A program made the translations under genes and the position numbers. A stretch of 41,738 nt of DNA, from the IMG/VR virus record IMGVR_UViG_3300044673_000108, positions 1-41,738 of that record; one strand, written 5' to 3'. The notes under the pieces are model-generated. The model was not told the origin of the DNA and ran no database searches. It worked only from the letters and a program-made list of their open reading frames with translations. This stretch comes from a virus. Position 1 is the first letter of the stretch. Every line of letters begins with the position of its first letter. Shown here piece by piece: positions 3,808 to 41,738 of the stretch.

Positions 3808-3808
3808 G

Positions 3809-3964: not shown

Positions 3965-3981
3965 CCCTTCTCCTTCCTCGC

Positions 3982-4584: not shown

Positions 4585-4637
4585 CTGGTTCCTCCTGTTG
4601 GTTTCGATGGGCGGGTCCGCTTAGCTGTTCGTTAGGC
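4515..4637 (+). other. attC 9 (long, carries a start codon)
   Basis: R'' GCCTAAC 4515-4521 and R' GTTAGGC 4631-4637; 123 bp. Arms GCTCAAGTCGGACCCCGCCC and GGGCGGGTCCGCTTAGC. The roughly 60-bp terminal segment holds AGGAGG and ATG on the minus strand. Confidence 0.88.
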
Positions 4638-4916: not shown

Positions 4917-4962
4917 GTTGCCTCCGTTCGGCCCAAGGGCCGGTTAGCTTCTTCCGTTGGGC
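4865..4962 (+). other. attC 10 (carries a start codon)
   Basis: R'' GCCTAAC 4865-4871 and R' GTTGGGC 4956-4962. The arms GCTCAACCGGACCCTTGGGC and GCCCAAGGGCCGGTTAGC pair almost perfectly, with C and A unpaired on the left. Confidence 0.92.
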
Positions 4963-5182: not shown

Positions 5183-5561
5183 TCATCTTATTTGGCGTAA
5201 TCCGCCCTTTGGCGGCGACGATGAACCCCCAATGCTCACGGTTGCGATACCAGAGGCGCATCACATACCAGTCCGCGAAGTCGCCGTTGCGGAAGCCGCT
5301 CGCCAGGGCAAGCTGCTCATCCCACAGGGCGCGGTGTTCGGCCCGGTTCTCGCGGAGGTGATACCGCCTGATCGTGTCCGTGATGTATTCGGCGGCGTGG
5401 GCCTCGCGTAGCTGGGTTTCCAGTTCGAGGTTCCGAGCGTAGTGGTCGCTGGTTTCGTCCCGTTCGCACTGTTCCCGGTAGATCCCGAGGGCTACGGCGG
5501 TCCCAGCGGTGATGATGATGATGGACCATAGCCAATTCATCGCTGCCTCGGGCTCAGGCAT
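5175..5561 (-). CDS. Membrane-anchored hypothetical protein at the operon/array junction
   Basis: 128 aa from ATG 5561 (MPEPEAAMNWLWSI); ATG at residue 8 is also possible. One N-terminal membrane helix (NWLWSIIIITAGTAVALGI), then a charged helical cytoplasmic or periplasmic part. Its TAA stop is contributed by the R' core at 5174-5180, as in cassette genes, although no attC follows on its other side. It overlaps the preceding gene by 8 nt. Confidence 0.65.
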   Translation of the reverse strand: MPEPEAAMNWLWSIIIITAGTAVALGIYREQCERDETSDHYARNLELETQLREAHAAEYITDTIRRYHLRENRAEHRALWDEQLALASGFRNGDFADWYVMRLWYRNREHWGFIVAAKGRITPNKMSA

Positions 5562-5721
5562 CGTCCCCCCTCTCGGCACCAACCGAATGGAGCAGCGCGA
5601 GGGCGTCCTGAATCTTGTTCAGCTTGTTCAACCGCCTCACTACTTCTTCGATGGGAACGGGGCACCCATGTTCGAGGATGGCGGCTCCATCGCTCATGAT
5701 TCCTCCGGTGTATCGGCTCAT
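5554..5721 (-). CDS. Small hypothetical protein
   Basis: 55 aa from ATG 5721 (MSRYTGGIMSDGAAIL) behind AAAGGACG. The in-frame ATG at 5697 has its own GGAGG and would give 47 aa. The C-terminal half is helical (IEEVVRRLNKLNKIQ). Its stop overlaps the next start. Function unknown. Confidence 0.55.
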   Translation of the reverse strand: MSRYTGGIMSDGAAILEHGCPVPIEEVVRRLNKLNKIQDALALLHSVGAERGDDA

Positions 5722-5743
5722 TGGTTCGTCCTTTCGAGGGTCA

Positions 5744-5912
5744 TGCAGATGGACAGGTGCTATCGCTGTGCGTTGGCGAGGGTGAGCAGTTCAGCGGCGC
5801 TCTCGTAGTCCTTCACGGAGCAAGCACGGGCAGCGGTTTCTTCGAGCCAGTTCACAAGGTTATTCATGGGTTCCCCTTTCGTGGGATGGGTCGTGCAGAT
5901 GGACAGGTGCTA
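5744..5912. repeat. Repeated 19-bp intergenic element
   Basis: TGCAGATGGACAGGTGCTA occurs at 5744-5762 and 5894-5912. Each copy starts at a TAG stop on the minus strand and is followed by CGAAAGG-type ribosome-binding sequence and an ATG. A related element (GATGGACATATTCACTT) is at 6333-6349 and 6810-6826. Confidence 0.75.
5760..5867 (-). CDS. Very small hypothetical protein
   Basis: 35 aa from ATG 5867 (MNNLVNWLEETAARA) behind AAAGGGGAACCC. Amphipathic helical sequence ending LLTLANAQR. TAG at 5760 begins the repeated intergenic element. Function unknown. Confidence 0.5.
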   Translation of the reverse strand: MNNLVNWLEETAARACSVKDYESAAELLTLANAQR

Positions 5913-6161
5913 CTTGGTTGCGAGGGCTTCATAGAGAACCGATGCGGGATACAGGCTCCAGTCACGCCCATCCATCACGACTATCTGGACGATCCGTTCT
6001 CGTTCCTCATGCTTGGCGGCAATCCTGGCGTTCAGGACAGTGGTAGCGATCTCGGGAGGGTATCCGTCCAGCCCATAGCTTTCTTCGATCTTGAGGGCTT
6101 CGCTGGACCCATCCCGCATCGCCAGCATGTAACGCTTCATGTCTTTGACTTCATCGCGCAT
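5910..6161 (-). CDS. Hypothetical protein
   Basis: 83 aa from ATG 6161 (MRDEVKDMKRYMLAM) two bases after the upstream stop, with GGGGGC as ribosome-binding site. Mixed alpha/beta sequence ending YPASVLYEALATK. Part of the tightly spaced leftward early operon. No family recognised. Confidence 0.65.
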   Translation of the reverse strand: MRDEVKDMKRYMLAMRDGSSEALKIEESYGLDGYPPEIATTVLNARIAAKHEERERIVQIVVMDGRDWSLYPASVLYEALATK

Positions 6162-6163
6162 CG

Positions 6164-6322
6164 TTAAGCCCCCAGCCAGATTTCAGGGTTTGACCCCGGA
6201 ACGGTCACGGGTTGAGGCGCAGGCAATTCGCGCACGGGTTTGGCGGCATTGGGATCGGGGTGAATGTGCGGCTCTCCAATGTCCTGGATGATGTCTAAGC
6301 ACTTCTCGCAGTAACGGCGCAT
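6164..6322 (-). CDS. Small protein with N-terminal CxxC-like motif
   Basis: 52 aa from ATG 6322 (MRRYCEKCLDIIQDI) behind GGAGGAACC. YCEKC near the start could bind metal; the second half is proline-rich (ELPAPQPVTVPGS). Short hydrophilic early phage protein of unknown role. Confidence 0.6.
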   Translation of the reverse strand: MRRYCEKCLDIIQDIGEPHIHPDPNAAKPVRELPAPQPVTVPGSNPEIWLGA

Positions 6323-6332
6323 GGTTCCTCCA

Positions 6333-6349
6333 GATGGACATATTCACTT
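6333..6349. repeat. 17-bp intergenic repeat, copy 1 (copy 2 at 6810-6826)
   Basis: GATGGACATATTCACTT is identical in both places. On the minus strand it reads AAGTGAATATGTCCATC and in this copy overlaps the TGA stop of the 6344 gene just before a GGAGGAACC-ATG start. In the second copy its ATG could itself be a start codon. Confidence 0.65.
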
Positions 6350-6565
6350 GCTGTTGAGAAGGGCGGTGCAGAGGCAGAGGGCACAAGAACCCGGCTCATC
6401 GGTTCCGCAGTCGCAGCCATCGTTTTCCATCCAAGCCACGGCTGGCTCAATCGCCGCCTCCAGCTTTGCGTTACGAGCAACGAGGCGATCCCGTTCCTGG
6501 CTGACCTTCAGGTATTCCTTGAAGTAATCCACGGGGTTCCTTTCTTCCAGGTCGATCCTGGACAT
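6344..6565 (-). CDS. Small coiled-coil protein with C-terminal cysteine cluster
   Basis: 73 aa from ATG 6565 (MSRIDLEERNPVDYF). Helical middle (VSQERDRLVARNAKLEAAI) and a C-terminal cluster CDCGTDEPGSCALCLC that probably binds zinc. Similar layouts are common in small phage early proteins. Function unknown. Confidence 0.65.
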   Translation of the reverse strand: MSRIDLEERNPVDYFKEYLKVSQERDRLVARNAKLEAAIEPAVAWMENDGCDCGTDEPGSCALCLCTALLNSK

Positions 6566-6572
6566 GCTCGGG

Positions 6573-6818
6573 CTAGACCCAAGACAGGTTGTTCATTTTG
6601 TGATGCAGGGCGAAGCACTCGGCATGGACCTGTTTGCACTCCACGATTCCGCCATCTTCGGTGCCAGGGATAGCCACCAACACCACGGGCGCGTCAGCCT
6701 TGGACCGACAGATCAGGCACTCGAAATTGACTGGGTTGGGATGCTCGAAAATCCGGCTTGGGTATTTGAGTTCAGGACCGCTCATGAGTGCCTCGGAATG
6801 GTGGTGAAGGATGGACAT
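6573..6818 (-). CDS. Zinc-finger-like hypothetical protein
   Basis: 81 aa if started at ATG 6818 within the repeated element (MSILHHHSEALMSGP), or 70 aa from ATG 6785, which has a GAGGC site. Longer upstream readings are unsupported. CLIC and ECKQVHAECF form a CxxC/CxxxHxxC arrangement consistent with one zinc site. Function unknown. Confidence 0.6.
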   Translation of the reverse strand: MSILHHHSEALMSGPELKYPSRIFEHPNPVNFECLICRSKADAPVVLVAIPGTEDGGIVECKQVHAECFALHHKMNNLSWV

Positions 6819-6910
6819 ATTCACTTCGTTGATGATTGTTGAGACACTATCTCGATGTAACCCGCACAGTTGCTGGGTCCAAGGTTCCGCTCCGTGAAGT
6901 TCACAGGACA

Positions 6911-7159
6911 CTAAACTGCCTCACCCCATGCGCCCATTCGGATCGCCTCATACCTGGCATCCCACGCTCGGGTGTCCTGCGCTCGGGTTGACTTCATCCG
7001 TGCGACCTTGGCGGCATCCTGGATGCGGTAGATGCCCCAGGCGGCCTGTTCATCCATGGTGAGGGGGCGGACCTTGGCGGGTTCAGCGGCAAACACGGGC
7101 CATAAAAGGCAGAACGCGGCGAAGCATCCCAGGGGAACCAGCACAATCACGGCGATCAT
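6911..7159 (-). CDS. Membrane or exported hypothetical protein
   Basis: 82 aa from ATG 7159 (MIAVIVLVPLGCFAA), overlapping the upstream stop as ATGA. The first 24 residues form a membrane helix or signal peptide ending FAAEPAK. The rest is charged and helical. No family recognised. Confidence 0.65.
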   Translation of the reverse strand: MIAVIVLVPLGCFAAFCLLWPVFAAEPAKVRPLTMDEQAAWGIYRIQDAAKVARMKSTRAQDTRAWDARYEAIRMGAWGEAV

Positions 7160-7338
7160 CGCGGCATCTCCTTTTGAATCCGGGCCATTGCATCAATGTC
7201 TGCATTGAACTTCCGAGCGTCCTCTGCGGCTTTGCGGCGGGCCTGGATATTGTCTGAGGCGGCGACGATGAATCCACAGAACGCGGCCATAAGGAAGCCG
7301 ATCTCTAGCGTGATGACGGCGGCTTTGAACGCTCTCAT
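7156..7338 (-). CDS. Small single-span membrane protein
   Basis: 60 aa from ATG 7338 (MRAFKAAVITLEIGF) behind GAGGG. Membrane helix at about residues 7-27, then a charged helix (NIQARRKAAEDARKF). ATGA overlaps on both sides. Function unknown. Confidence 0.6.
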   Translation of the reverse strand: MRAFKAAVITLEIGFLMAAFCGFIVAASDNIQARRKAAEDARKFNADIDAMARIQKEMPR

Positions 7339-7595
7339 GCGGCCCTCTTTCGTTTGCGGGGCATGGGCTCCCGGTAGATGTAATCCGACTTGGGCAGGCA
7401 GGTAGGGGCTTTGCGCTCGAAGATCATGCGGAACCTCCCGGTATCTACCTCGGACTGGAGCCTGTCGCGTGTATTCGTCCACCGTGCCAGGGCGTGGGAC
7501 CATCCGGCGTATTGCTCGGGTGTCATCTCATGCACTGGGCAGGGCTGAATGGGGCGGGCGTCAAGGTGCGCGGTGAGGGCTTCTAGGGGCGTCAT
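7335..7595 (-). CDS. Hypothetical protein
   Basis: 86 aa from ATG 7595 (MTPLEALTAHLDARP), overlapping the stop of the annealing protein gene as ATGA. Basic C-terminus MPRKRKRAA. It probably works near the recombination gene, but no domain is recognised. Confidence 0.6.
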   Translation of the reverse strand: MTPLEALTAHLDARPIQPCPVHEMTPEQYAGWSHALARWTNTRDRLQSEVDTGRFRMIFERKAPTCLPKSDYIYREPMPRKRKRAA

Positions 7596-8347
7596 GCGGA
7601 CTTCACCGGGTATTTGGCAATGGTCCGCTGGCAGTAGGCATGGAGTCGGTTCGCCCACTTATCGAAGCCGATGGTGGTATCTCCGATGGTGGATTCAGGC
7701 TTCCTTACGATGGTCTTGATTTCAGACTCATCCACGCTGCGCTCCAACAGAATGTCGGCAAGGTCGGCAATTAGGTTCTTCGCATTGGCGTAGTCATCGT
7801 CGGACCACGGGAACTCTTCGGCGGTGACGGGAGGCTCCCACGCCTTTGCCTGCGCTCCGGGGATCGTCTCGGCTTCCGTCTCGTCCAGCATCCCGAGGCC
7901 ACAATGGGCCAGGACAGCGCGGCGGATCGCCTTGGTGGTCGCCTTCAGCATGGCGTTGGCCTTGGCCTCGCCCTTGAGCCCCGCCACGGGCACGGCTCCC
8001 ATGTTCTCGGTGCTGCGCTGGTCCGGTCCTTTGACCTCGACAAAGACGCAGTAGATGTCGTCCACTAGTTCCCGCAGGGTCACGCGATGGGACAGTCCAT
8101 GAATGGCAGTAAGCTGCTGGGTGCAGGCGGCGTTAGCGTAGAGGATTTCCTTCCCGTTCAAGGTCAAGAGGTCAAAGGGCTTCGCGGCGGGGTCCAGTCC
8201 GGCCTGCTGGCATCGGTAGTTATAGAAGGCTACCTTCTGCCCTGCGTCCAGCCGCTTGAGGTCGCCATTGATGACGAGGCTACTGATGACATGCGGGTCC
8301 AGCGTCATCAGGGGCTGAGTGGTGGTGGTTCTGACTTCTGCGTTCAT
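7592..8347 (-). CDS. RecT/Bet-like single-strand annealing protein (putative)
   Basis: 251 aa from ATG 8347 (MNAEVRTTTTQPLMT); earlier starts lack a ribosome-binding site. The central region reads FYNYRCQQAGLDPAAKPF, then LNGKEILYANAACTQQL, then GLKGEAKANAMLKATTKAI and GLGMLDETEAETIP. These blocks match a widespread phage early protein family with RecT/Bet-type features (a quorum-like KxGLDPxxxPF start and a KAxTKAxRR helix). In lambda the equivalent gene lies at this place in the PL operon. The C-terminal 80 residues are more variable. Annealing activity is inferred from the family and position. Confidence 0.65.
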   Translation of the reverse strand: MNAEVRTTTTQPLMTLDPHVISSLVINGDLKRLDAGQKVAFYNYRCQQAGLDPAAKPFDLLTLNGKEILYANAACTQQLTAIHGLSHRVTLRELVDDIYCVFVEVKGPDQRSTENMGAVPVAGLKGEAKANAMLKATTKAIRRAVLAHCGLGMLDETEAETIPGAQAKAWEPPVTAEEFPWSDDDYANAKNLIADLADILLERSVDESEIKTIVRKPESTIGDTTIGFDKWANRLHAYCQRTIAKYPVKSA

Positions 8348-8583
8348 GCGACACCTTTCAGTAGATACGCGGCTGACTTCTCCAGTGCCCGGCGCAAGGG
8401 CCTTTCCGCAGCTTCCACGGCACAATCCGGAGCGTGCTGCTCGTAGTCCGGGGCTCCGCAGGATGTGCAGGAACACCCCATCTGGTGACGGGCGTCATTC
8501 CACGCCTCTTCCCATCCGAGGCCGTGATCAAGTGATGCGCGGATCTGTTCCCGCATGTAGATGATCATTTCTTCGGCGTTCAC
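8344..8583 (-). CDS. Small cysteine-rich hypothetical protein
   Basis: 79 aa from GTG 8583 (M)NAEEMIIYMREQIR, the GTG overlapping the upstream stop (GTGTGA). CSCTSCG and a further Cys (DCAVEAAERP) suggest metal binding. Stop overlaps the start of the annealing protein gene. Function unknown. Confidence 0.6.
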   Translation of the reverse strand: MNAEEMIIYMREQIRASLDHGLGWEEAWNDARHQMGCSCTSCGAPDYEQHAPDCAVEAAERPLRRALEKSAAYLLKGVA

Positions 8584-8753
8584 ACGGCCTCCGCCGGCAT
8601 GGGTAGGCGCTTGGCCAGCACCTCCAGGGCCTTGCGGGCCGCTTCCATTCCTGTGGCCCGGTATTCCCCGGTGTAGGCCCGCTGCCCGTCAATGGTGAGG
8701 ATTGGACGCCAGCCGTAGTCATCGTCGTGGTCGAGGGTGATGGACACTTGCAT
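8580..8753 (-). CDS. Small hypothetical protein
   Basis: 57 aa from ATG 8753 (MQVSITLDHDDDYGW), three bases after the stop of the 8756 gene. Beta-rich start followed by a helix (GMEAARKALEVLAKRL). Function unknown. Confidence 0.6.
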   Translation of the reverse strand: MQVSITLDHDDDYGWRPILTIDGQRAYTGEYRATGMEAARKALEVLAKRLPMPAEAV

Positions 8754-8755
8754 GG

Positions 8756-9370
8756 CTACACCGCCTTCCCAAGCGACTTGGCGAGGTCCCCCGCGAAGCT
8801 GACCATATCGAGGGGGGCGAAGTTTGGAGCGGGGTGGGCCTGCTCGATGGCATCCATGGCCTCGTCCTCTTCCGGCGTGGCGACGGGGATGGAGTCGGCG
8901 TGTTCCATGCCGTAGGGACCTAAAAACCACCTGCCATCGCCAATGACCTCGGCGTTTCCTTGGCCATTGAAGTTGACGAGCCTGCCCGCTTCGACAATCC
9001 CGATATCACCACGCGAGAACCACGGGCGGTCCCCCAGTGTGACGCGAACACGATCACCAACCTTAAACGGACGCGCCTTCCGTGCCGCGATGGTCCGGGC
9101 GATATCGGCGGCGAAGGGTTCCTCTGAAAACGGCGGTTCGTCGGCAATGGCCCGCATCGCATCGTTCCCCGTCGCATGGCTGGGATGCACACAGTCATCA
9201 CCACAGGCGCAGTCATCGCCGTAGTCATGGCGGATGATCCTCCCCGCGCTGCGCTCAATCGAGGCACCCAGCGCCATGGCGCGTTCTACGGCCATGGGCT
9301 CGTCCAGATTGAGGCCAGCGATGGAGGCTTGTAGGCCCTTCAGGACATCCAGTTCGGTCATGGGGTTCAT
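8756..9370 (-). CDS. SH3-like beta-barrel domain protein
   Basis: 204 aa from ATG 9370 (MNPMTELDVLKGLQA) behind ATAGGAGCCGAC. A central Cys cluster (CACGDDCVHPSH) is followed at about residues 105-150 by FKVGDRVRVTLGD, RGDIGIVEAG and a GRWFLG strand, typical of a small KOW/SH3-like barrel. Role in the phage unknown; nucleic-acid or protein binding is possible. Confidence 0.6.
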   Translation of the reverse strand: MNPMTELDVLKGLQASIAGLNLDEPMAVERAMALGASIERSAGRIIRHDYGDDCACGDDCVHPSHATGNDAMRAIADEPPFSEEPFAADIARTIAARKARPFKVGDRVRVTLGDRPWFSRGDIGIVEAGRLVNFNGQGNAEVIGDGRWFLGPYGMEHADSIPVATPEEDEAMDAIEQAHPAPNFAPLDMVSFAGDLAKSLGKAV

Positions 9371-9378
9371 GTCGGCTC

Positions 9379-9465
9379 CTATGCGGCCTGTGGGATCGGA
9401 TGGATGGGCGCTGGCGTTTTCGGCCCAGGCGGATGGGGTGGGATGAATCGGACGATGCGTTTCAT
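9379..9465 (-). CDS. Proline-rich micro-ORF
   Basis: 28 aa from ATG 9465 (MKRIVRFIPPHPPGP) with a strong GGAGGA site and correct spacing. It ends 8 bases before the next start. Six or more prolines. It may be a real microprotein or a leader for the 8756 gene. Confidence 0.4.
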   Translation of the reverse strand: MKRIVRFIPPHPPGPKTPAPIHPIPQAA

Positions 9466-9591
9466 GGCAGTCCTCCGGCTGGCCTACTGGCCTGTGGTGG
9501 TGGGGTTGCGGTTCAGATGGGGGTGGTGCGAGGGATTCTTTCCCCTCTGCCAACCCGACCAGGATGTTTGGGTCTGAGCTGCCCCCGCGCG

Positions 9592-9699
9592 CTACGGGTG
9601 CCTTCCCTGGAGCCGTCTATTGGTAATTTGCTCCGCTGCCCGAATCAGGGTGTCCAGGTCGCTCACGGGCGGGTATGCCCATCCGTGCCCTCGATGCAC
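9592..9699 (-). pseudogene. Possible gene remnant or small ORF
   Basis: A minus frame with coding-like sequence (RIQFGVHRGHGWAYPPV then SDLDTLIRAAEQI) ends at TAG 9592. It has no ATG; GTG 9699 or 9666 are the only starts, and it is stopped upstream at about 9750. It may be the tail of a decayed gene. Confidence 0.3.
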
Positions 9700-10257
9700 C
9701 CCGAATTGAATCCTTGGGGCCAGACGCGACCCTGGCTTTGTGGGCCTTCAGCAGTGATCGCAGCCCAACCGTCCTAGGCTCTAGTTGACAGTTTGCCGAG
9801 CCGTGCTGCCGTTGTTGTGGATCCGGGGGCACCCGGGTTTCAGCCTCTACTCCCCCCAACGAACAGAACAGGTATTCGGTAGTAACCCCCAACCGATCAC
9901 ACTTCCGTGCATGTCGCTTACATGCTTCCCAAGGAACTTGAAACCGGATGGTAGTCGTCTCTTCTACTCTGTGACCGCCCCGCCTTACGGACAGAGGCAT
10001 CCGGTGTGTATCGTCTGGAGGAAAGCCGCTGTGTGGGCCTTCCCTCAAACGATAGGTGCCGGTGGTGAGCGCTCGAATGCCTCACTATGTAGCGCCCCAT
10101 TGCCATGATGGACAGAAGGCACCGGCTGATTTTGTATCCACGCAGCTGCACAACGCTGACCGTGGGGTTTCCGGCACTCTTGCTACATTGGCCGGTTATC
10201 AAAGATCAAGGGGGCCGAGGCCCTGGAGAAAACGGCCGTAGCCGCTTTCCTCAAGGT
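9700..10257. other. Early-operon gap without a convincing gene
   Basis: About 560 bases between the first PL gene and the rest of the operon hold only overlapping frames of low coding quality on both strands and no good ribosome-binding site. Position suggests an untranslated leader, antitermination site or small RNA, or a decayed gene. I see no strong terminator in it. Confidence 0.4.
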
Positions 10258-10446
10258 CTAGCTGGCCTTCAGGTAATCGACGGTGCGGAGCTTCTCCTGC
10301 TCAATCAGCTCGTCCAGATGGCCCATCACGGCCCCGTAGTGGATCGCTTCCCGCTTGGTGTGGCTGGCCTTGCGTGACCAGTAGTCCTGCTCAAGGTCCA
10401 GCTTGATCCGGCGAAGCTTGGCGATTCGGCTGTTGGTTGCGCTCAT
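10258..10446 (-). CDS. First gene of the leftward (PL) operon
   Basis: 62 aa from ATG 10446 (MSATNSRIAKLRRIK) behind AAGGAGCCGAC. Basic N-terminus followed by helical sequence (YWSRKASHTKREAIHYG). It lies directly after the duplicated promoter/operator block. Its place and basic start recall lambda N, but there is no sequence evidence for antitermination. Confidence 0.6.
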   Translation of the reverse strand: MSATNSRIAKLRRIKLDLEQDYWSRKASHTKREAIHYGAVMGHLDELIEQEKLRTVDYLKAS

Positions 10447-10480
10447 GTCGGCTCCTTGGGTGGCCTTGCTTTGATGTCCC

Positions 10481-10523
10481 ATACTCGCTCTTTCTGTGAG
10501 CATGGTCAAGGGGCGAATCTCAC
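10481..10523 (-). promoter_or_regulatory. Leftward early promoter/operator (PL/OL-like)
   Basis: On the minus strand a GTGAGAT half-site, GCCCCTTGACC (TTGACC as a -35) and CTCACAGAAAGAGCGA follow in order. The same series occurs on the + strand at 11290-11326. The -10 is weak (GAGTAT or TATGGG). An adjoining AATCTCA/TGAGATT inverted repeat with T-runs lies at 10516-10540. Confidence 0.65.
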
Positions 10524-10550
10524 TTTTTTTGAGATTTTTTGTCAGGGCAC

Positions 10551-10572
10551 AAAAAACCCCTCTTTCGAGGGG
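10551..10572 (-). terminator. Rho-independent terminator, leftward
   Basis: On the minus strand CCCCTC-GAAA-GAGGGG is followed by six T. It ends the two-gene transcript of the immunity region just before the PL-like promoter, separating the repressor-side transcript from the early operon. Confidence 0.85.
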
Positions 10573-10608
10573 CTGGATTCGGGACTGTTTTCTATCTGGA
10601 GGGGGGCG

Positions 10609-10803
10609 TCAGGCAGCTCCGTCCTTATCCTTCCGCCGATACCACCAGGTGGGGATGGCGACGAACCAGGGCCTATGTTCCTCGTCCAGCATCAAGCGGG
10701 GCTGATCGAAGTCTGGATGCTCCACAAGCGGCACCCCCAATTCTCTGGCGGCCTCGTGGCTTCCGGAGAGTGTGTCGCGCTTATGGGCGAACCGCTTGGG
10801 CAT
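10609..10803 (-). CDS. Immunity-region small protein
   Basis: 64 aa from ATG 10803 (MPKRFAHKRDTLSGS) behind GAGGTGG. Ends WYRRKDKDGAA. It is second in the leftward transcript that starts beside OR and ends at the 10551 terminator, so it is probably expressed in the lysogen. Possibly a superinfection or accessory lysogeny gene; no family recognised. Confidence 0.6.
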   Translation of the reverse strand: MPKRFAHKRDTLSGSHEAARELGVPLVEHPDFDQPRLMLDEEHRPWFVAIPTWWYRRKDKDGAA

Positions 10804-10818
10804 GGGGCCACCTCGATG

Positions 10819-11241
10819 TTAGCGAGGCTTGCGAATCGCTCCAGCCTCGATGAGATCCTGAAGAGCATTAAACACCTTCTCGGCATCTTCATCTGAGGTA
10901 TTAGGATCGGCCAAATATTTTGTGATGGATTGCCGGGCTAGGCGTTTGGCCGGGCTGGGCAAATCATGCGTTGCTCCGTAGATTTCGCTTTCATCTACAC
11001 CCCACCGTGCCGCTGCCAGCTTGATCACCGGCCTCTTCGGGGCGCGCCTGTGGTCATGCCGATATGCGGTCCTCAGGCTGGCCCCGGTGGTGAGGCCAAT
11101 GGCAACGGCTACCGTCTGAAAGGCGGCGTCCTCGCTCATACCCTGCGCCATCAGTTCCGCAACGTCCGAATCCACGAGCTGCATGAAACGATCCCTCTGT
11201 TTCCAGGGATCGTCTTCGCGTGGTTTACGTGGTCGCGCCAT
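10819..11241 (-). CDS. Putative repressor-position DNA-binding protein
   Basis: 140 aa from ATG 11241 (MARPRKPREDDPWKQ). No Shine-Dalgarno site is visible and the upstream stretch is AT-rich (CAAATAATG), so a leaderless transcript like lambda cI from PRM is possible. Basic N-terminus; the middle (RTAYRHDHRRAPKR, AARWGVDESEI) could form a helix-turn-helix. It occupies the cI position, divergent from the Cro-like gene and next to the OR-like block. Repressor function is inferred from position only. Confidence 0.5.
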   Translation of the reverse strand: MARPRKPREDDPWKQRDRFMQLVDSDVAELMAQGMSEDAAFQTVAVAIGLTTGASLRTAYRHDHRRAPKRPVIKLAAARWGVDESEIYGATHDLPSPAKRLARQSITKYLADPNTSDEDAEKVFNALQDLIEAGAIRKPR

Positions 11242-11287
11242 GCATGAAGGATCTACATTATTTGCATATTTTGCAATATCACCCAGA

Positions 11288-11337
11288 CTGTGAGATCGCC
11301 CCTTGCGTTTCTCACAGAAAGAGCGACCATGTAAGGT
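11288..11337 (+). promoter_or_regulatory. Rightward early promoter/operator (PR/OR-like)
   Basis: A perfect inverted repeat CTGTGAGA (11288-11295) / TCTCACAG (11310-11317) overlaps a TTGCGT -35-like box and is followed by AAGAGCGA, as in the OL-like copy at 10485-10523. The start codon at 11338 is only about 20 bases beyond, so the leader is very short. Confidence 0.65.
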
Positions 11338-11607
11338 ATGAGGATCGAGATTCCGAAGGGCCACACCGCCTCCAGCATCGCTGAGGCTTGCCGCGTCCAC
11401 CCGGCGTCTATCAACCGGGCCTTGGCCGATTACGATGAAGCCACGGGCATCCATGTCTGCTCCGGCACGCTCGCCATCGCTATTCACTACGCCACCGGGG
11501 GGCGGGTCAAGTGCTGGGACCTGCGTCCTGACTACTGGAAGCGGGGCCAGATGCCGCCGAAGCCTTTGCGCGTTCAAGACGGCCCACCTTCGGACTTGGC
11601 CGCGTGA
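11338..11607 (+). CDS. Cro/YdaS-like transcription regulator
   Basis: 89 aa from ATG 11338 (MRIEIPKGHTASSIA). The N-terminal helix-turn-helix region (TASSIAEACRVHPAS) and the segment GTLAIAIHYATGGRVKCWDLRPDYW match small Cro/YdaS-type phage regulators, which end with an LRPDYW-like motif. First gene of the rightward operon, directly behind the OR-like block. Probably antagonises the lysogeny repressor. Confidence 0.75.
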   Translation: MRIEIPKGHTASSIAEACRVHPASINRALADYDEATGIHVCSGTLAIAIHYATGGRVKCWDLRPDYWKRGQMPPKPLRVQDGPPSDLAA

Positions 11608-12244: not shown

Positions 12245-12573
12245 GCCACCTTGAGGACACACTCTGGAACCAGATCCACCTTGCCAAGCTGCCCATTCCC
12301 GAGCGTGAGTATCAGGCGATCCCCGGCAGGCGCTTTCGTTGGGACTTCGCGTGGCCTACGGAAGCTGATGGAGCCCTGCTAGTGGAAGTCCAGGGAGGCA
12401 CCTGGAACGCCGGGGCGCATGGCCGTGGGGCTGGGATCAGCCGGGACTGCGAAAAGCTGAACCTCGCCACCCTGAACGGCTGGAAAGTGCTGGTCTTCAC
12501 CTCTGACCAGATCCGAGACGGGAAGGCCCTGGCCTGCCTCCAGTGGTATTTCCGACTGCGGGAGGTTGCGTAA
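12241..12573 (+). CDS. PD-(D/E)XK-type endonuclease (VSR/DUF559-like)
   Basis: 110 aa from ATG 12241 (MSHLEDTLWNQIHLA). RFRWDFAWP and LLVEVQGGTW supply the conserved Asp and Glu-x-x of a small PD-(D/E)XK fold. GAGISRDCEKLNLATLNGWKVLVFT is the usual downstream helix-strand. Such small nucleases are common beside phage replication genes; the substrate is unknown. Confidence 0.7.
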   Translation: MSHLEDTLWNQIHLAKLPIPEREYQAIPGRRFRWDFAWPTEADGALLVEVQGGTWNAGAHGRGAGISRDCEKLNLATLNGWKVLVFTSDQIRDGKALACLQWYFRLREVA

Positions 12574-12574
12574 C

Positions 12575-13420
12575 ATGGCCCGCATCCGAACGATCAAACC
12601 CGAGTTCCCCCAGTCCGAATCCATGGGCCGCGTGTCCCGTGATTCTCGGTTGCTTTTCGTCCTGCTCTGGACCCTTGCCGACGATGACGGGAGGCTTCGA
12701 GGATCCTCGCGAATCCTCGCGAGCCTTCTTTTCCCCTATGACGACGACGCCAAAGACCTCATGGATGCGTGGCTGTCGGAATTGGAGCGTGAAGAGTGCA
12801 TCGTCCGCTACATGATCGACAAGGACACTTACCTCCAAATCCTTAACTGGAACAAACACCAGAAGATAGACAAACCGTCTGCCTCTAAAATCCCAGCTTT
12901 CGACGAATCCTCGCGAACATTCTCGAATCCTCGCGAAGCGTCGTCGGAGGATCAAGGACCAAGGACCAAGGACCAAGGACCTAAGGACCTATCCCCCCTA
13001 ACCCCCCAGGGGGAACTTGTCCCGCCTGCTCCGCAGGCTGAAAAGCCTCCTCGGGTGAAGAAACTCAAAACTACGGAACTCAAGCCGGAGTCGGTTGAGG
13101 CATTCCAGGCGGCATGGGAAACCATCCCTGCGTCCGTGGTCCGGTGGGATGCCAACGTGCGGCGCGACATCGAAGAGGCCGTCGCCAAGGGGAGCCGTGC
13201 CGAGGCGGAGCGGAACTTCCAGGCCATCGTAGACGCCAAGATCGCCACGCCTCGGACGCTGTATGTCGCCCTGTATGCCTACATCACGGAAGGCGAGGGG
13301 CCACGGAAGGGCTTTGTCCAGCATTGCGCGACGTTCTACGGCCCGAAGAAGCGGACCTACCTGGAATGGCTTGAGCGTGCGCGTGAACTCGAATCAGAAC
13401 GCTACGGGGTGTCGGCATGA
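12575..13420 (+). CDS. Phage replication protein (replisome organiser / O-like)
   Basis: 281 aa from ATG 12575 (MARIRTIKPEFPQSE), with GGAGG ten bases upstream; the TTG nine bases earlier is less likely. The first 110 residues, including ILNWNKHQKIDKPS, match the N-terminal winged-helix domain of phage replication initiators. A variable Ser/Pro/Lys linker (about 110-170) is coded by DNA repeats, and a helical C-terminal domain (RRDIEEAVAKGSRAEA) follows. The repeats may be the replication origin, as in lambda O. Confidence 0.75.
   Translation: MARIRTIKPEFPQSESMGRVSRDSRLLFVLLWTLADDDGRLRGSSRILASLLFPYDDDAKDLMDAWLSELEREECIVRYMIDKDTYLQILNWNKHQKIDKPSASKIPAFDESSRTFSNPREASSEDQGPRTKDQGPKDLSPLTPQGELVPPAPQAEKPPRVKKLKTTELKPESVEAFQAAWETIPASVVRWDANVRRDIEEAVAKGSRAEAERNFQAIVDAKIATPRTLYVALYAYITEGEGPRKGFVQHCATFYGPKKRTYLEWLERARELESERYGVSA
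12704..12936. repeat. Iteron-like repeats in the replication gene
   Basis: TCCTCGCGA occurs at 12704-12712, 12714-12722, 12908-12916 and 12928-12936, mostly preceded by AA; spacing within pairs is 10 and 20 bp, one and two helical turns. This resembles an origin embedded in its initiator gene. Confidence 0.65.
12954..12989. repeat. 7-bp tandem repeat AAGGACC
   Basis: Five copies begin at 12954, 12961, 12968, 12975 and 12983 (one extra base before the last). They encode the DQGPRTKDQGPK linker. A 7-bp unit would shift frame on expansion or loss. Confidence 0.85.
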
Positions 13421-13776: not shown

Positions 13777-13961
13777 GTATGCCCCGCGAGTATCACCAGG
13801 AGCGATACCGGACCCTGATCGCCCTGGGCCTTTGTCCGAAGTGCGGGAAGGCCGATTCCCGAGCCAACGCGACCACCTGTGAGGCTTGCGGGTCTGCCCA
13901 GCGGGAAACCCAGCGGAAACGACGCGCGGCCCGTAAAGCGGCGTTAGCGGAGGCCGCATGA
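13773..13961 (+). CDS. Small zinc-ribbon protein
   Basis: 62 aa from ATG 13773 ([15 protein letters not shown]), overlapping the upstream stop as ATGA. CPKCGK and CEACGS form a zinc ribbon, followed by a basic tail ([14 protein letters not shown]). Likely nucleic-acid binding; similar small ribbons occur in many phage early operons. Confidence 0.7.
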
Positions 13962-14615
13962 GAATTGAAACCATCGGCCCCGCCACGCTCTACCTTGGGG
14001 ATTGCCGGGACATTCTGCCGACGACGGCCCCGGTTGACCTTGTGCTGACTGATCCGCCGTATGGGATTGGGCGGGATGGACAATCAGCATCTACGGGGAA
14101 GCATGGTGGCCGGAAGGCGTACGAGTTCATGGCATGGGATGACTCAAGGCCCTCGCCAGATCTGTTTGAAATGATATTGGCGGCATCTGAGCGCCAAATC
14201 ATCTGGGGCGGGAACTACTTTGCCGACCTTCTGCCGCCCACTGCGGGGTGGTTGGTTTGGGATAAGGGACAACGGATATCTCAGTCCGACGGCGAATTGG
14301 CATGGAAGTCATGGGGGGGGGGCGCTTCGGATTTGGACGCTCAACAGGGTGGCCATTATGTCTGACGGCGCGGTTCATCCAACACAGAAGCCAACAGAGC
14401 TTATGCGGTGGTGCCTAGGGCTTGACCGTGAATCTAACACTGTTCTTGACCCCTTCATGGGCTCGGGTTCAACGGGTGTCGCATCTATCCAAGAGGGACG
14501 GTCATTCATCGGCATTGAGCGGGAACCCAAATACTTCGACATCGCCTGCAAGCGCATCGCCCTTGCGGTAGCTGAGTCAAAGCAACGCCTGTTCCCCGTG
14601 GATGGTGTTGCATGA
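13958..14615 (+). CDS. DNA methyltransferase (beta-class), interrupted at a poly-G tract
   Basis: Starts ATG 13958 ([15 protein letters not shown]). The N-terminal part carries the catalytic TDPPYGIG motif (about residues 30-37), and the C-terminal part, in another frame, has [10 protein letters not shown] and the AdoMet site [14 protein letters not shown] before the AdoMet motif is beta-class order, adenine-N6 or cytosine-N4. The frames meet at ten consecutive G (14313-14322). Nine G would give one 218-aa protein (SWGGALRIW across the join). With ten, translation stops at 14365. This could be a phase-variable switch, a mutation, or an assembly error. Confidence 0.8.
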
Positions 14616-36277: not shown

Positions 36278-36507
36278 CCTAGCATCCGCCTAGCATCCGA
36301 AGCTGGGCGGGGCAGGGGAGCCAAAACGCTAGGATTCAATTGGTGCGCCCGGTGGGGGTCGAACCCACATGACCTAAGTCGGCGGATTTTAAGTCTTAGT
36401 TTGCGCCCCGCAAGCAACCGCATCATTCCGTAACCTCCATGTTTTCAGTATAGGCCCCGCAATATTACGCGCCATCCCGCAACCTGCTAGTATCCGCCTA
36501 GCATCCG
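36278..36507. repeat. Integrase arm-type direct repeats around attP
   Basis: CCTAGCATCCG is tandem at 36278-36288 and 36289-36299, and again at 36497-36507 next to a GCTAGTATCCG copy (36486-36496). The pairs flank the tRNA-derived core and are the likely binding sites for the integrase N-terminal domain. Confidence 0.7.
36341..36393 (-). other. attP core: 3' half of tRNA-Leu(UAA)
   Basis: On the minus strand the sequence runs from the anticodon loop CTTAAAA through a long variable arm, the T arm GTGGG-TTCGACC-CCCAC, and GGGCGCA-CCA (CCA at 36341-36343). The 5' half and the matching anticodon-stem strand are missing, so this is not a full tRNA. It is the integration core that restores the host tRNA gene. 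Confidence 0.8.
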
Positions 36508-36516
36508 GGGTGGGCC

Positions 36517-37692
36517 GTGAAAGTCGCGCTGTCAGACAAGATCATCGGGGGGGTGGATCATTCTAGCATCCTGGAAGGGCGGGAACGCCGCACCCTTTGG
36601 GATGCCTCACAGAAGGGGCTGGGCCTGCTGGTCCATAAGTCGGGAACCCTAGCCTGGGTCCTGCGCTACTCCATGCGGGGGCAAAACGGGCAGACCACGC
36701 TGGGGCAATGGCCGGATCTCCCCTATGCCATGGCGAAGAAAAAGGCCCAATCGCTCCGGGGCCAGATTGCGGATGGGATAGACCCAGCCAAGGTGAAGGA
36801 TGGAGCCAAGACGGTTAAGGATCTGGCGGCAGACTTTGAAAAGGACTATCTGCCTGGGCTGGCTGCCTCCACCTCGCGGACCTATAAGATGCTGATCAAG
36901 CGCCATATCCTGCCCAAGATTGGGCGACTGCTGGCGGATGAGGTAGCACTTCAGGACGTTGCGCGGGTCCACCATGCGCTCCGGGGCCAGCCCAGGACGG
37001 CGAACCAAGCATTAGCAGTCCTGTCTCGAATGCTGAACCTTGCGGAGCGGTGGGGATACCGGCCCGTAGGCTCGAACCCATGTAGTGCCATCGGGCGCTT
37101 CCCTGAGACCAAGCGGGAACGATACCTCACGGCGGAGGAAATGCAGACGCTGGGGGACAAGATCAGGGTGGAGGAATTGGCCGGATGGAACCCCTACACC
37201 ATCGCGGCCCTGCGGTTCGCCATGCTCACGGGAATGAGGCGCGGAGAAGTGGCGGGGCTGAAGTGGAGCCAGATCAAGGGAGACAAGGTGGTCTTCACTG
37301 CGCGGCGGGAAGACGCCTCTACGTCATCCAAAACCGGGGCAAAGACGATCCCACTCAACCCGCCTGCCAAGGCCATCCTGGGGGGGCTCACGCGGATGCT
37401 GGGCAGTCCCTACGTGTTCCCGGGTGAACAGGGCGGGCCATGCACGGGAAGCCTCAAGAACCTCTGGTATAAGCTGCGCGAAGAAACCACCTTCGCAGAC
37501 GTTCGGCTCCATGACCTTCGGCATACCTTCGCATCCATCGGCATCATGGAGGGCCTGACTCTTGAGCAGATCGGGGGCCTGCTGGGGCACAAGGCGGCGG
37601 CTACGACCAAGCGATATGCCCATCTAATGGAAGAGGCCGCACGGGTGGCGGCCTCAAAAGTCGGGAGCGAAGTGGTCAAGCGGCTTGGATAG
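36517..37692 (+). CDS. int: Tyrosine integrase (P4/DUF4102 type)
   Basis: 391 aa from GTG 36517 (M)KVALSDKIIGGVDHS. The N-terminal arm-binding domain has LRYSMRGQNGQTTLG, a SAM-like core-binding domain lies at about 105-190, and the catalytic domain has Arg in LTGMRRGEVAGL (about 238), HDLRHTFAS (about 331), LGHK (about 355) and Tyr in TKRYAHL (about 367). It should drive integration at tRNA-Leu. The N-terminal arm domain marks it as a phage/island integrase and not an integron IntI. Confidence 0.92.
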   Translation: MKVALSDKIIGGVDHSSILEGRERRTLWDASQKGLGLLVHKSGTLAWVLRYSMRGQNGQTTLGQWPDLPYAMAKKKAQSLRGQIADGIDPAKVKDGAKTVKDLAADFEKDYLPGLAASTSRTYKMLIKRHILPKIGRLLADEVALQDVARVHHALRGQPRTANQALAVLSRMLNLAERWGYRPVGSNPCSAIGRFPETKRERYLTAEEMQTLGDKIRVEELAGWNPYTIAALRFAMLTGMRRGEVAGLKWSQIKGDKVVFTARREDASTSSKTGAKTIPLNPPAKAILGGLTRMLGSPYVFPGEQGGPCTGSLKNLWYKLREETTFADVRLHDLRHTFASIGIMEGLTLEQIGGLLGHKAAATTKRYAHLMEEAARVAASKVGSEVVKRLG

Positions 37693-39439: not shown

Positions 39440-39471
39440 GGATTGCGAGTTCGTATAAAACAAAGTTGGGC
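39440..39471 (+). other. attI-like recombination site (main phage)
   Basis: Ends TATAAAACAAAGTTGGGC, core GTTGGGC 39465-39471. TAAAACAAAGTT is identical to the end of class 1 attI1. No attC arms pair with it. First cassette of this arm follows directly. About 100 bases further left lie TTAGGCGAACCGC and a complementary GCGGTTCG, comparable to the inverted repeat beside the left attI-like site. Confidence 0.65.
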
Positions 39472-39473
39472 GC

Positions 39474-39692
39474 TTAGTCGTAGCTCTTGAGTAAGGATTC
39501 GAGATTGAGAATCCGGTTTTGCATGGCAGTGATGCCGTTGTGAATCCCGACTTGATGGAACCCGTAGGAATCCAGCAGGGCGCGGCACACGGTCAACTCG
39601 TTCGTTGCCCGTTCAAGTTCATCGGCTAGGCGCATGTTCTCGCTGATGCCGCCTTCGATCTGTTCGTCCATCTTTTGGGCCATGTAATCCAT
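39474..39692 (-). CDS. Cassette R1: coiled-coil protein
   Basis: 72 aa from ATG 39692 (MDYMAQKMDEQIEGG) behind GGAGGAACCAG. Heptad-like (ENMRLADELERATNELTVC ... NRILNLESLLKSYD). TAA stop three bases from the core. Longer upstream starts extend towards attC and are not needed. Function unknown. Confidence 0.65.
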   Translation of the reverse strand: MDYMAQKMDEQIEGGISENMRLADELERATNELTVCRALLDSYGFHQVGIHNGITAMQNRILNLESLLKSYD

Positions 39693-39713
39693 CTGGTTCC
39701 TCCCGGGCATCGC

Positions 39714-39788
39714 GCCCAACCATCTCGCTCAACCCCGCTTCGCTCGGACCCGCGCAAGCGCGGCCCGGGTTAGCTCGGGGCGTTGGGC
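39714..39788 (+). other. attC R1
   Basis: R'' GCCCAAC 39714-39720 and R' GTTGGGC 39782-39788. Arms GCTCAACCCCG...GGACCCG and CGGCCCGGGTTAGC. Nearly identical to attC L2 apart from the loop. Confidence 0.9.
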
Positions 39789-39789
39789 G

Positions 39790-39993
39790 TCAGTTAAGGT
39801 GGTCGTTGATTTGTTCGACAGAGATGGCGAGATCCCCAATCACCTCTTTGGTCGCCGCGATGGTTCGGTGGAAGTGGTCTTCCATTTCGGCCCGCTGGAG
39901 TGCCCGAACCGCCATGACGAGCGATCTCTGGGCAGAGGAAAACTGGTCTCGTGCGGCAATCAGGTATGGAATCTCTTTCGATTCGTGGGGCAT
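39790..39993 (-). CDS. Cassette R2: helical protein
   Basis: 67 aa from ATG 39993 (MPHESKEIPYLIAAR), two bases from R'', so its AGAGGG site is in the attC. Continuous helix (RSLVMAVRALQRAEMEDHF). TGA at 39790 beside the R' core. Function unknown. Confidence 0.6.
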   Translation of the reverse strand: MPHESKEIPYLIAARDQFSSAQRSLVMAVRALQRAEMEDHFHRTIAATKEVIGDLAISVEQINDHLN

Positions 39994-39994
39994 C

Positions 39995-40089
39995 GCCCAA
40001 CCCTCTGCTCAACTCGGACCCCGCCTGGTCCGTGATTTTTAAGGGTTTCGCTAACCGCAGGCGGGGCCGGTTAGCTTCATTCGTTGGGC
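39995..40089 (+). other. attC R2
   Basis: R'' GCCCAAC 39995-40001 and R' GTTGGGC 40083-40089. Arms GCTCAACTCGGACCCCGCC and GGCGGGGCCGGTTAGC. Spacer TTCATTC before R' as in attC 8. Confidence 0.9.
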
Positions 40090-40090
40090 G

Positions 40091-40378
40091 CTACTCATCG
40101 CCGCAGAGGCGACAAAGGTAAACATCTTCTGCCTGGTGCCACCCATCGCCTTCGCAGATGGGCTTGCCGCATGCCTCACAGAACGACACGAACTCGCGGT
40201 CGTTGATGGCGAGGATCTGGGCTCCCTTCGGGAGGCTGGCTCGGATGCCATCAAGCGAGGTGGCCTGGAAATCGAGGGTCAGCCGGTACTCGATCTTGAA
40301 GACCTCGCCCAACCCACCGCTCAACTCGGACCCAACCGCGTCCGGCAACTCTCCGGGATTTCCGGATACTTCGGTCAT
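40091..40378 (-). CDS. Cassette R3: zinc-ribbon protein with attC-encoded N-terminus
   Basis: 95 aa from ATG 40378 (MTEVSGNPGELPDAV) behind GAGGAG, both in the attC R3 loop. The first 24 residues are attC sequence. Body: IEYRLTLDFQATSLDGI, then C-terminal FCEACGKPIC and CRLCGDE forming a zinc ribbon. TAG directly after the R' core. Function unknown. Confidence 0.7.
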   Translation of the reverse strand: MTEVSGNPGELPDAVGSELSGGLGEVFKIEYRLTLDFQATSLDGIRASLPKGAQILAINDREFVSFCEACGKPICEGDGWHQAEDVYLCRLCGDE

Positions 40379-40432
40379 GGTTCTCTCCTCAAAATGGTGC
40401 TGCGGTTGGTCCGGTTAGCGGGACCGTTAGGG
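40307..40432 (+). other. attC R3 (long, carries a start codon)
   Basis: R'' GCCCAAC 40307-40313 and R' GTTAGGG 40426-40432; 126 bp. Arms GCTCAACTCGGACCCAACCGC and GCGGTTGGTCCGGTTAGC, with unpaired C and T on the left. Confidence 0.9.
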
Positions 40433-40651
40433 CTCCCGCCGATCAATGCAGTCATCCATGCTGCGGTAGTAGAGGGCCGGGAACCGCTCGCGCCAGGCTC
40501 TGACTTCGGCCTCCAGCTTCGGTCGCGTGATGCAGCAGAGCGGCTGGGGGAATGCTCTTTCAAAACTGAAGGGGGTGATCAGCGCCCTAACCGTCTCGCT
40601 CAAGTTGGACCCTACCGCGCTCGGCTTCGGGGTTCCAGGTGTCTCACTCAT
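40427..40651 (-). CDS. Cassette R4: protein with attC-encoded N-terminus
   Basis: 74 aa from ATG 40651 (MSETPGTPKPSAVGS) behind AGGGAG, in the attC R4 loop; an ATG six codons upstream is possible. The first 22 residues are attC sequence. The body contains CCITRPKLEAEVRAW and RSMDDCIDRREP. The TAA stop is in the R' core. Function unknown. Confidence 0.65.
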   Translation of the reverse strand: MSETPGTPKPSAVGSNLSETVRALITPFSFERAFPQPLCCITRPKLEAEVRAWRERFPALYYRSMDDCIDRREP

Positions 40652-40711
40652 GGTTTTGTTCTCCCTCATGATTTGTGATGCGGTAGGGCCACTTAGCTCG
40701 GGTCGTTAGGC
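40585..40711 (+). other. attC R4 (long, carries a start codon)
   Basis: R'' CCCTAAC 40585-40591 and R' GTTAGGC 40705-40711; 127 bp. Arms GCTCAAGTTGGACCCTACCGC and GCGGTAGGGCCACTTAGC. Confidence 0.88.
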
Positions 40712-40816
40712 CTCGAACATCGGGCTCGTCTGAATCCCGTTCGGGGTGCCAAATCGCCTGTTCGGCCGTTCTGCTTGGGGTTTCGTGGGGGGCGTGCGCT
40801 CATGGTGGCAAGTCAC
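40706..40816 (-). CDS. Cassette R5: possible basic small protein
   Basis: 36 aa from GTG 40816 behind AGGAAAGAG, (M)TCHHERTPPTKPQAE, or 49 aa from GTG 40855. It ends TSPMFEA with TAA inside the R' core, as other cassette genes do; this agreement is the main support. No other frame fits the cassette. Function unknown. Confidence 0.4.
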   Translation of the reverse strand: MTCHHERTPPTKPQAERPNRRFGTPNGIQTSPMFEA

Positions 40817-40888
40817 ACGTCGCTCTTTCCTATCTCCGCTCGGTTTTCCCGTCACCCCGGTTCAGTCCAGGTCAGAACTGGCGTCTCG

Positions 40889-41012
40889 GCCTAACCTTCA
40901 GCTCAACTCGGACCCCGCCTGCATTGTCTCCCGCTCTCTCTCAGCTTCTCGCTTTCTCGGCTCCGCTCGTCGCCTCGGTGCAGGCGGGTCCGGTTAGCTC
41001 CCTTCGTTAGAC
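40889..41012 (+). other. attC R5 (long)
   Basis: R'' GCCTAAC 40889-40895 and R' GTTAGAC 41006-41012. Arms GCTCAACTCGGACCCCGCCTGC and GCAGGCGGGTCCGGTTAGC. The loop has an ATG, but that frame stops at once, so here the loop is not a gene start. Confidence 0.9.
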
Positions 41013-41246
41013 CTTGTTCCCGTCTGCGTATTCGGTGTGCCAAGAGCAGATAACCCGCCGATTCCAGGCCCGTTCCGCCGCAACCTTCGTTTCCAGCCAT
41101 GGCCCCTCGGCGGCGCACTGGTTGCAAACCGCCCAATGGCTCGTCCCATCAGTCGTGAATAGCCGCGCACTCCCCCCACAGAATGGGCAGGGGTCTAACC
41201 GTGCGCTCGACTCGGACCCTGCCTCAGGTGCGTTCTGATTCGTCAT
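41007..41246 (-). CDS. Cassette R6: Lar-like restriction alleviation protein
   Basis: 79 aa from ATG 41246 (MTNQNAPEAGSESSA) behind AAAGGAACC in the attC R6 loop; the first 18 residues are attC sequence. The body LDPCPFCGGSARLF, AVCNQCAAEGPW and AAERAWNRR matches the Lar family: two CxxC pairs followed by a terminal AxxAWNRR. Rac-prophage Lar relieves type I restriction by promoting modification. The TAA stop is in the R' core. Confidence 0.75.
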   Translation of the reverse strand: MTNQNAPEAGSESSARLDPCPFCGGSARLFTTDGTSHWAVCNQCAAEGPWLETKVAAERAWNRRVICSWHTEYADGNKV

Positions 41247-41292
41247 GTCGGTTCCTTTCTCCGGCAGGGCCGGTCAGCTTGGGTCGTTAGGC
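41193..41292 (+). other. attC R6 (carries a start codon)
   Basis: R'' GTCTAAC 41193-41199 and R' GTTAGGC 41286-41292. Arms GCTCGACTCGGACCCTGCC and GGCAGGGCCGGTCAGC, unpaired bases on the left. Confidence 0.9.
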
Positions 41293-41466
41293 GTAGACCA
41301 GCACCCAAGCCCACGCTGCGAAGCCAATCCCCATGAGAAGGAAGACCACATCCTCGCCCAGGTTGTATTTCACGGTCCTTGGGTAGTCGCCAACCATCAT
41401 GGCGAGGGCTCGCGCAACGATTCCCGCGATGCCGAACCAGAACGAAAACTTGATGTAGAGGTTCAT
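41287..41466 (-). CDS. Cassette R7: two-span membrane protein
   Basis: 59 aa from ATG 41466 (MNLYIKFSFWFGIAG) behind AAGGAGCAC. Two apolar helices (about 5-25 and 42-58) separated by GDYPRTVKYNLGED. The TAA stop is in the R' core. Function unknown. Confidence 0.65.
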   Translation of the reverse strand: MNLYIKFSFWFGIAGIVARALAMMVGDYPRTVKYNLGEDVVFLLMGIGFAAWAWVLVYA

Positions 41467-41497: not shown

Positions 41498-41578
41498 GCC
41501 TAACCCGGCGCTCAGCCTTCGCTCACTTCGTTCGCCGGACCCCGGCTGCGCCGGGCCCGGGCTAGCTGTTCGTTAGGC
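41498..41578 (+). other. attC R7
   Basis: R'' GCCTAAC 41498-41504 and R' GTTAGGC 41572-41578. Arms GCTCAGCC...GGACCCCGG and CCGGGCCCGGGCTAGC. Confidence 0.88.
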
Positions 41579-41738
41579 GCGTGGCATAACGCTGAGATCA
41601 ATGTATGGACTGCCGCACAGGTGGAGCTGCCACGCCCGCCGCCCGTGCGGCTTGGGAGTCGCGTCCTCTTCCCCTTGGCGGAAGATGGTTCCGCAAGCCT
41701 TGATGATCGCGGCCACCAGTTCTTCGGCGGGCACGGCT
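41573..41738 (-). CDS. Cassette R8: partial copy of the cassette 5 gene
   Basis: The last 55 codons of the same nucleotidyltransferase-like protein as 2964-3377, cut by the window end. Only one base differs over the aligned stretch (C at 3002, T at 41611). The upstream attC differs (R7 here, L4 there), so the same cassette stands in two contexts. Confidence 0.8.
   Translation of the reverse strand, partial: AVPAEELVAAIIKACGTIFRQGEEDATPKPHGRRAWQLHLCGSPYIDLSVMPRA
41612..41738. repeat. 127-bp terminal overlap with 3003-3129
   Basis: Every base of 41612-41738 equals 3003-3129, and the preceding base differs. A length of exactly 127 suggests an assembly-graph k-mer overlap where the contig end rejoins its own interior. 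Confidence 0.85.

Follow-up and report, generated by a model that had tools for sequence, protein, structure and literature searches.

An inverted array of integron-type attC cassettes in the leftward early operon of a probable circular P22-like phage of Holophagaceae

In the usual integron gene cassette the gene is oriented as its attC site, and in chromosomal integrons it is normal for uniform attC sites to lie next to unrelated genes. The bottom strand of attC is the recombining strand and fixes the orientation of the cassette (PMC8946536). Clusters of attC sites lacking an integrase gene (CALINs) are already described in phages: Qi et al. (2023) report 17 among 10,705 phage genomes, including Tetrasphaera phage TJE1, and five of six phage CALIN attC sites tested recombine with IntI1 (PMC9892861). 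In the portion of that paper covered here, the cassettes of TJE1 and PH101 all point one way, in bacterial fashion, and the sites of P12002L are divergent (PMC9892861).

The DNA analysed here (the window) is a stretch of 41,738 nucleotides, virus record IMGVR_UViG_3300044673_000108. Like the phage CALINs, it has attC clusters in a phage genome without an integrase gene, but it differs from those in the same portion of that account by its systematically antisense genes and attI-like edge, by a likely host lineage with matching attC type and IntI, and by sharing among unrelated phages; the Holophagaceae attC type was not found in that portion (PMC9892861). It resembles the sedentary chromosomal integron of Geothrix fuzhouensis in attC type (best 92.7% identity), attI-like core and direction away from attI, although that integron has IntI and canonical genes and the phage array has neither. 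With P22-like temperate phages it shares scaffold, coat, portal, gp10-like head closure and DNA ejection genes and a size near 38.6 kb; however, its leftward early operon is a cassette array and its large terminase subunit is of the PBSX/TIGR01547 type.

The window ends in a copy of its own interior, with positions 3003–3129 and 41612–41738 identical at 127 of 127 bases and a lone mismatch beside them (T at 41611, C at 3002). The initial annotation had this right but overlooked that identity picks up again past the mismatch for 39 further bases, giving a block of 167 bp with one mismatch (2963–3129 versus 41572–41738). No exact repeat in the window is longer than the 127-bp pair, and the second longest (39 bp) is part of the same block. 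By repeat comparison (71 contigs for the contig end) its parts are as follows.

2963–3129: interior copy of the 167-bp block
41572–41611: 39 extra identical bases and the mismatch at 41611; block start at the core GTTAGGC
41612–41738: exact 127-bp copy of 3003–3129 at the contig end, read as an assembler k-mer overlap

The block opens precisely at GTTAGGC in both copies, this being the crossover core of an integron attC site, and leftward of GTTAGGC the two sides are unrelated. The branch point at the shared cassette, c0, is a cassette boundary, both left neighbours being joined to c0 at the attC core G↓TTAGGC; the argument from breakpoints at the core draws on a single pair within the window plus two or three others outside it. 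Of 71 whole contigs this is the only one to have a 127-bp stretch of its interior repeated at its end, and the match is to the interior and not to the opposite contig end; end overlaps were looked for in contigs G001 and G003, and none were found. The length is the top value of a commonly used SPAdes k set (PMC8172020), in agreement with its earlier description as a usual largest k-mer. An exact overlap of k at a de Bruijn fork would mean that the path beyond 41738 leads, initially at any rate, into 3130; the overlap by itself does not tell whether the path from 41738 runs the whole way round. If it does, the circle measures 38,609 bp (41738 − 3002 − 127), as originally calculated.

To either side of the join the leftward operon is organised as an array of attC cassettes, with 13 sites in the circle (including arm A, left of c0 at the contig end) and four in the arm at the contig start (arm B). 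Imperfect palindromes lie between the small leftward genes at 39474–41466 and 2964–4916, and their plan (RYYYAAC, spacer, GCTCAAC, variable loop, GTTAGC, spacer, GTTRRRY) is that of integron attC sites. The sites are listed with E values from a covariance model trained on 25 chromosomal integron attC sites from two Holophagaceae genomes and on no phage sites.

1695–1791 (+): attC, arm B (6.5e-15)
1967–2057 (+): attC, arm B, weak (0.035)
2212–2287 (+): degenerate attC-like hairpin, arm B; recognised by eye and missed by the model
2912–2969 (+): degenerate attC-like hairpin, arm B, adjoining c0; not found by the model
3394–3457 (+): attC of shared cassette c0 (5.2e-07)
3723–3807 (+): attC (7.4e-05)
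3982–4079 (+): attC (6.1e-12)
4287–4380 (+): attC (2.4e-15)
4515–4637 (+): attC; left-hand gene begins within the loop (4.8e-16)
4865–4962 (+): attC, final site of the array, adjoining ordinary early genes (2.6e-13)
39714–39788 (+): attC with 98% identity to one in a Geothrix prophage (4e-05)
39995–40089 (+): attC (2.6e-19)
40307–40433 (+): attC; left-hand gene begins within the loop (1.9e-09)
40585–40711 (+): attC; left-hand gene begins within the loop (4.3e-12)
40889–41012 (+): attC of the host chromosomal type, sharing 92.7% identity with one from a Geothrix chromosomal integron (3.3e-32)
41193–41292 (+): attC with 98% identity to one in a Geothrix prophage; the Lar gene begins inside it (5.9e-16)
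41498–41578 (+): attC left of c0, arm A (1.7e-04)

The model thus finds 14 sites in the window at E < 2e-4 and one at 0.035, every one of them on the + strand and within the two array regions; its last match, at 6066 (E 0.21), is at noise level. The clusters adjoin on the circle and have the make-up of a CALIN (at least two nearby attC sites and no intI). The degenerate hairpin at 2912–2969 is 86% identical to a site that the model does detect in a related contig, G002. A regular-expression scanner finds 12 sites in the window versus one across 20 dinucleotide-shuffled windows, GTTRGGC cores number 17 in the array regions and one elsewhere in the window, and all 12 strict attC sites have an extra base on the left arm. 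Arm pairs covary (GCTCAAC/GTTAGC, GCTCCAC/GTGAGC, GCTCAGC/GCTAGC, GCTCGAC/GTCAGC, GCTCAAG/CTTAGC), an observation that is descriptive only because the scanner itself selects for complementarity. Outside the window, the host-trained model has matches in G002 and in six further loci of phage or prophage-like character and finds no attC sites in G001; a search of bacterial genomes for this attC type returns mostly Acidobacteria, several of them Holophagaceae. A search against Rfam at gathering thresholds returned nothing. In 45 kb of phage TJE1 the scanner finds no site, and nor does the model, so both are tuned to the Holophagaceae attC type. The 100-bp attC at 41193–41292 also occurs at 4321–4420 and 5602–5701 of locus L109 and encodes an N-terminal leader starting MTNQNA, which in different phages is joined to different genes (Lar-like, HNH-like and of unknown function).

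Between the array genes, conserved arms some 25 nt long occur repeatedly, and a RecT-like protein gene (7592–8476; no family match, named by sequence resemblance) lies within the operon. The hairpins might therefore not be IntI substrates, with RecT-like recombination of the phage acting at short conserved repeats to give ordinary mosaicism. We regard this as unlikely, because the full attC architecture is kept, with the extra base on one arm, because a model trained on host sites fits one strand only, and because the c0 branch coincides with the G↓TT core, left of which the attC bodies are unrelated.

The array is set within the following genes.

1–2962 (−): variant arm B, with initiator-like gene 1–684, genes 681–923 and 920–1354 (DUF3850), attI-like edge and four cassettes; read as another phage
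2964–3457 (−): shared cassette c0, comprising gene 2964–3389 (141 aa, phrog_35913, function unknown) and attC 3394–3457
3452–4916 (−): cassette genes after c0 (3452–3700, about 3809–3966, 4074–4334, 4342–4584, 4632–4916), of which 4632–4916 also occurs at two further Holophagaceae loci
4967–11577 (−): remainder of the leftward early operon, including the RecT-like protein gene
12566–13420 (+): replication initiation protein of the circle (phrog_2149, 2e-30)
16161–36228 (+): terminase and P22-like virion genes (portal, scaffold, coat, head closure, DNA ejection, tail; PHROG)
36517–37692 (+): ordinary phage integrase (Arm-DNA-bind_3 and Phage_integrase), not IntI
39474–41466 (−): arm A cassette genes, including 39474–39719, 39790–39993, 40091–40378, 40427–40669, 41007–41246 (Lar-like anti-restriction) and 41287–41466

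A short ORF at 13958–14365 has a partial match to DNA methyltransferase families and is possibly a truncated gene. Repeated CTAGCATCCG units at 36279–36580, immediately upstream of the phage integrase gene, may be att or regulatory repeats. An 11-bp unit, TTTGCTGCTCG, is repeated four to five times at 238–292 of arm B within the replication-initiator-like gene.

Positions 3003–41738 are best read as a circular temperate P22-like phage of 38,609 bp, opened at cassette c0. PHROG matches show the P22-type order of portal, scaffold, coat, head closure and ejection genes, in support of a P22-like gene set, and the size called normal in the initial annotation is close to that of the relative G001 (IMGVR_UViG_3300005263_000001; terminase 83%), at 38,227 bp. 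The relative G002 (IMGVR_UViG_3300033493_000011; terminase 81%) has in one contig, in window orientation, rightward structural genes, leftward genes, the attC array and further leftward genes; this is the order that the circle predicts across the join and so supports it, together with the proposed shared cassette and an operon continuing through the join. G001 has the same layout without the array. Tandem repeats occupy the very start of the G002 contig (L093 1–230), a possible assembly end.

The segment 1–2962 is probably the arm of another phage that shares c0, attached by the assembler. It is read so because it has its own initiator-like gene and a left flank that recurs elsewhere: the window has two replication initiators, at 12566–13420 in the circle and, weakly scoring, at 1–684 in arm B, and the DUF3850 gene beside the attI-like site of arm B recurs in the independent Holophagaceae contig L185 (56% amino acid identity). 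A branch of other origin had been proposed at 1–3002; that origin remains probable, with the limit moved to 2962, at the attC core. Overall, the join, size, shared cassette and continuous operon of the initial annotation are supported, as is the P22-like gene set, and what it overlooked is the cassette boundary at the attC core and the integron-type array.

A single larger genome in which attI-like edge and array both occur twice, with a copy of c0 closing each array and the assembler halting at the second copy, would leave no 38.6-kb circle. A shared cassette edge longer than k would yield the identical exact 127-bp overlap, and an attI-like edge is present in both arms; yet such a genome requires two replication initiators and a total size well above 41.7 kb, whereas G001 ends at 38,227 bp and G002 connects the array to the early operon as the circle predicts, and we judge it improbable. 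The reading we favour, and hold to be probable, is a circular P22-like phage with a foreign arm and an attC array that has an attI-like edge, lacks IntI and is recombined by host IntI.

Isolated phages include no close relative by DNA, the best terminase match being about 51%, and the window phage occurs in none of 77 Holophagaceae genomes, only one of which has a terminase relative (53%). No other contig of the viral contig set searched carries c0, and Holophagaceae give a weak match only. Judged from attC type and shared cassettes, the host of the circle phage is probably a Geothrix-like member of the Holophagaceae.

Both arms begin at an attI-like edge.

1467–1495 (+): attI-like edge of arm B, TTCGTCTAATACAAAGTTGGGC
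39446–39474 (+): attI-like edge of arm A, TTCGTATAAAACAAAGTTGGGC

These starts have the form TTCGT(C/A)TAA(T/A)ACAAAGTTGGGC, likewise found with GTTAGGC in a Geothrix prophage, and they resemble the host attI regions that adjoin intI, TCGTCCAATTCAAAGTTAGGC and TCGTCTAATACTTAGTTAGAC. The motif has 17 matches in the 77 Holophagaceae genomes and none in a reversed control, and it was not seen in G002. One copy, in genome G065, directly adjoins an intI gene; most other copies fetched from Holophagaceae have no intI within about 6 kb. Five chromosomal attI-like sites of Holophagaceae (L177, L181, L182, L190 and L191), two of them in genome G058, are followed by canonical attC arrays with no detectable intI within about 6 kb. 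The IntI of Geothrix fuzhouensis scores 462 bits versus a curated cut-off of 265, and at least 22 attC sites of this type run away from its gene. No IntI of the TIGR02249 kind, as a complete integron would have, was found among the window ORFs searched; the only tyrosine recombinase gene found is the phage integrase at 36517–37692, which was rejected as IntI at 26 bits versus the cut-off of 265 and has an Arm-DNA-bind_3 domain.

The cassettes of the window consist of a gene and an attC at its 5′ end, with genes running against the array direction. The canonical direction is fixed internally, since in the chromosomal arrays the model strand is the gene strand and runs away from intI. Several window genes start within the loop of the right-hand attC (at 40378, 40669, 41246 and 4584); gene and right-hand attC therefore belong together and the gene is inverted. 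Orientation was scored by ORF position relative to the sites, codon scoring being uninformative in the chromosomal integron. The fit of ORFs between adjacent sites is better antisense for seven pairs and better sense for none in the window, the reverse of the usual cassette orientation, with sense and antisense counts of 0 and 5 in the Geothrix prophage and 0 and 2 in G002, versus 15 and 1 in the chromosomal Geothrix integron (L130 and L131). Mixed phage-borne arrays have one sense and three antisense (L105) or two and five (L102). The genes of phage-borne arrays in relatives are mostly antisense, and chromosomal integrons are mostly canonical. Phage genes near several of the arrays are terminase (L097, the Geothrix prophage, whose neighbours also include a transposase and GemA), tail (L102, L100) and portal-like (L105); L108 and L185 are only putative phage loci. 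The viral contig of L102 (5942–11497; IMGVR_UViG_3300048590_000316) combines a tail gene with some nine attC sites whose sequence type differs, and its genes are mostly antisense, one of them Lar-like; it suggests that the inverted layout may extend past Holophagaceae.

Cassettes are common to unrelated phages, as sequence comparison of their genes and sites shows. The cassette at 4632–4916 also occurs in the Mu-like Geothrix prophage (86% amino acid identity, 57 residues) and in L105 (84%, 61 residues), and between those two loci the matching block spans the whole cassette and begins at the core. The cassette at 40091–40378 also occurs in G002 (72% amino acid identity) in a different neighbourhood, and window attC sites are up to 98% identical to Geothrix prophage sites that lie there next to other genes. 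That the cassettes derive from a single entry out of a host integron and have since become fixed as early genes, as the lack of a detected IntI in the window and the degenerate state of some sites would allow, is very doubtful given that cassette order and content vary between arm A, arm B and G002 and that sites remain 95–98% identical across unrelated phages.

A mechanism can be proposed in which host IntI would recombine the phage attC sites in trans, during infection or lysogeny, with new cassettes inserted at the attI-like edge, presumably the promoter-distal end of the phage leftward operon. The phage promoter would then read only back-to-front cassettes, which may be the reason for the inversion. 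More tentatively, and with somewhat less than an even chance in our estimate, unrelated Holophagaceae phages draw on a dedicated inverted pool of early-gene cassettes, with a phage attI but no integrase, shuffled by host IntI in trans. If so, the inversion would serve the phage promoter and keep the pool apart from host cassettes, and the split assembly would be a snapshot of cassette shuffling. The reversed orientation predicts that cassettes captured at the phage attI would be expressed only when inverted.

The class itself, integrons and CALINs in phages, is already known (PMC9892861); set against the portion of that account covered here, inverted genes and an attI-like start look like new features. 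In the open literature neither Holophagaceae phage arrays nor systematic inversion were found described, which is weak evidence, since most subscription papers and preprints lie outside that scope.

By itself the contig end is an assembly detail, and it exposes a phage counter-defence and early-gene region built as integron cassettes. If host IntI moves these cassettes, short-read assemblies of such phages would break precisely at cassettes, and the phages would be using a device of bacterial adaptation to exchange anti-defence genes, Lar among them. The arrays suggest that Holophagaceae phages trade early genes by borrowing the integron machinery of their hosts.
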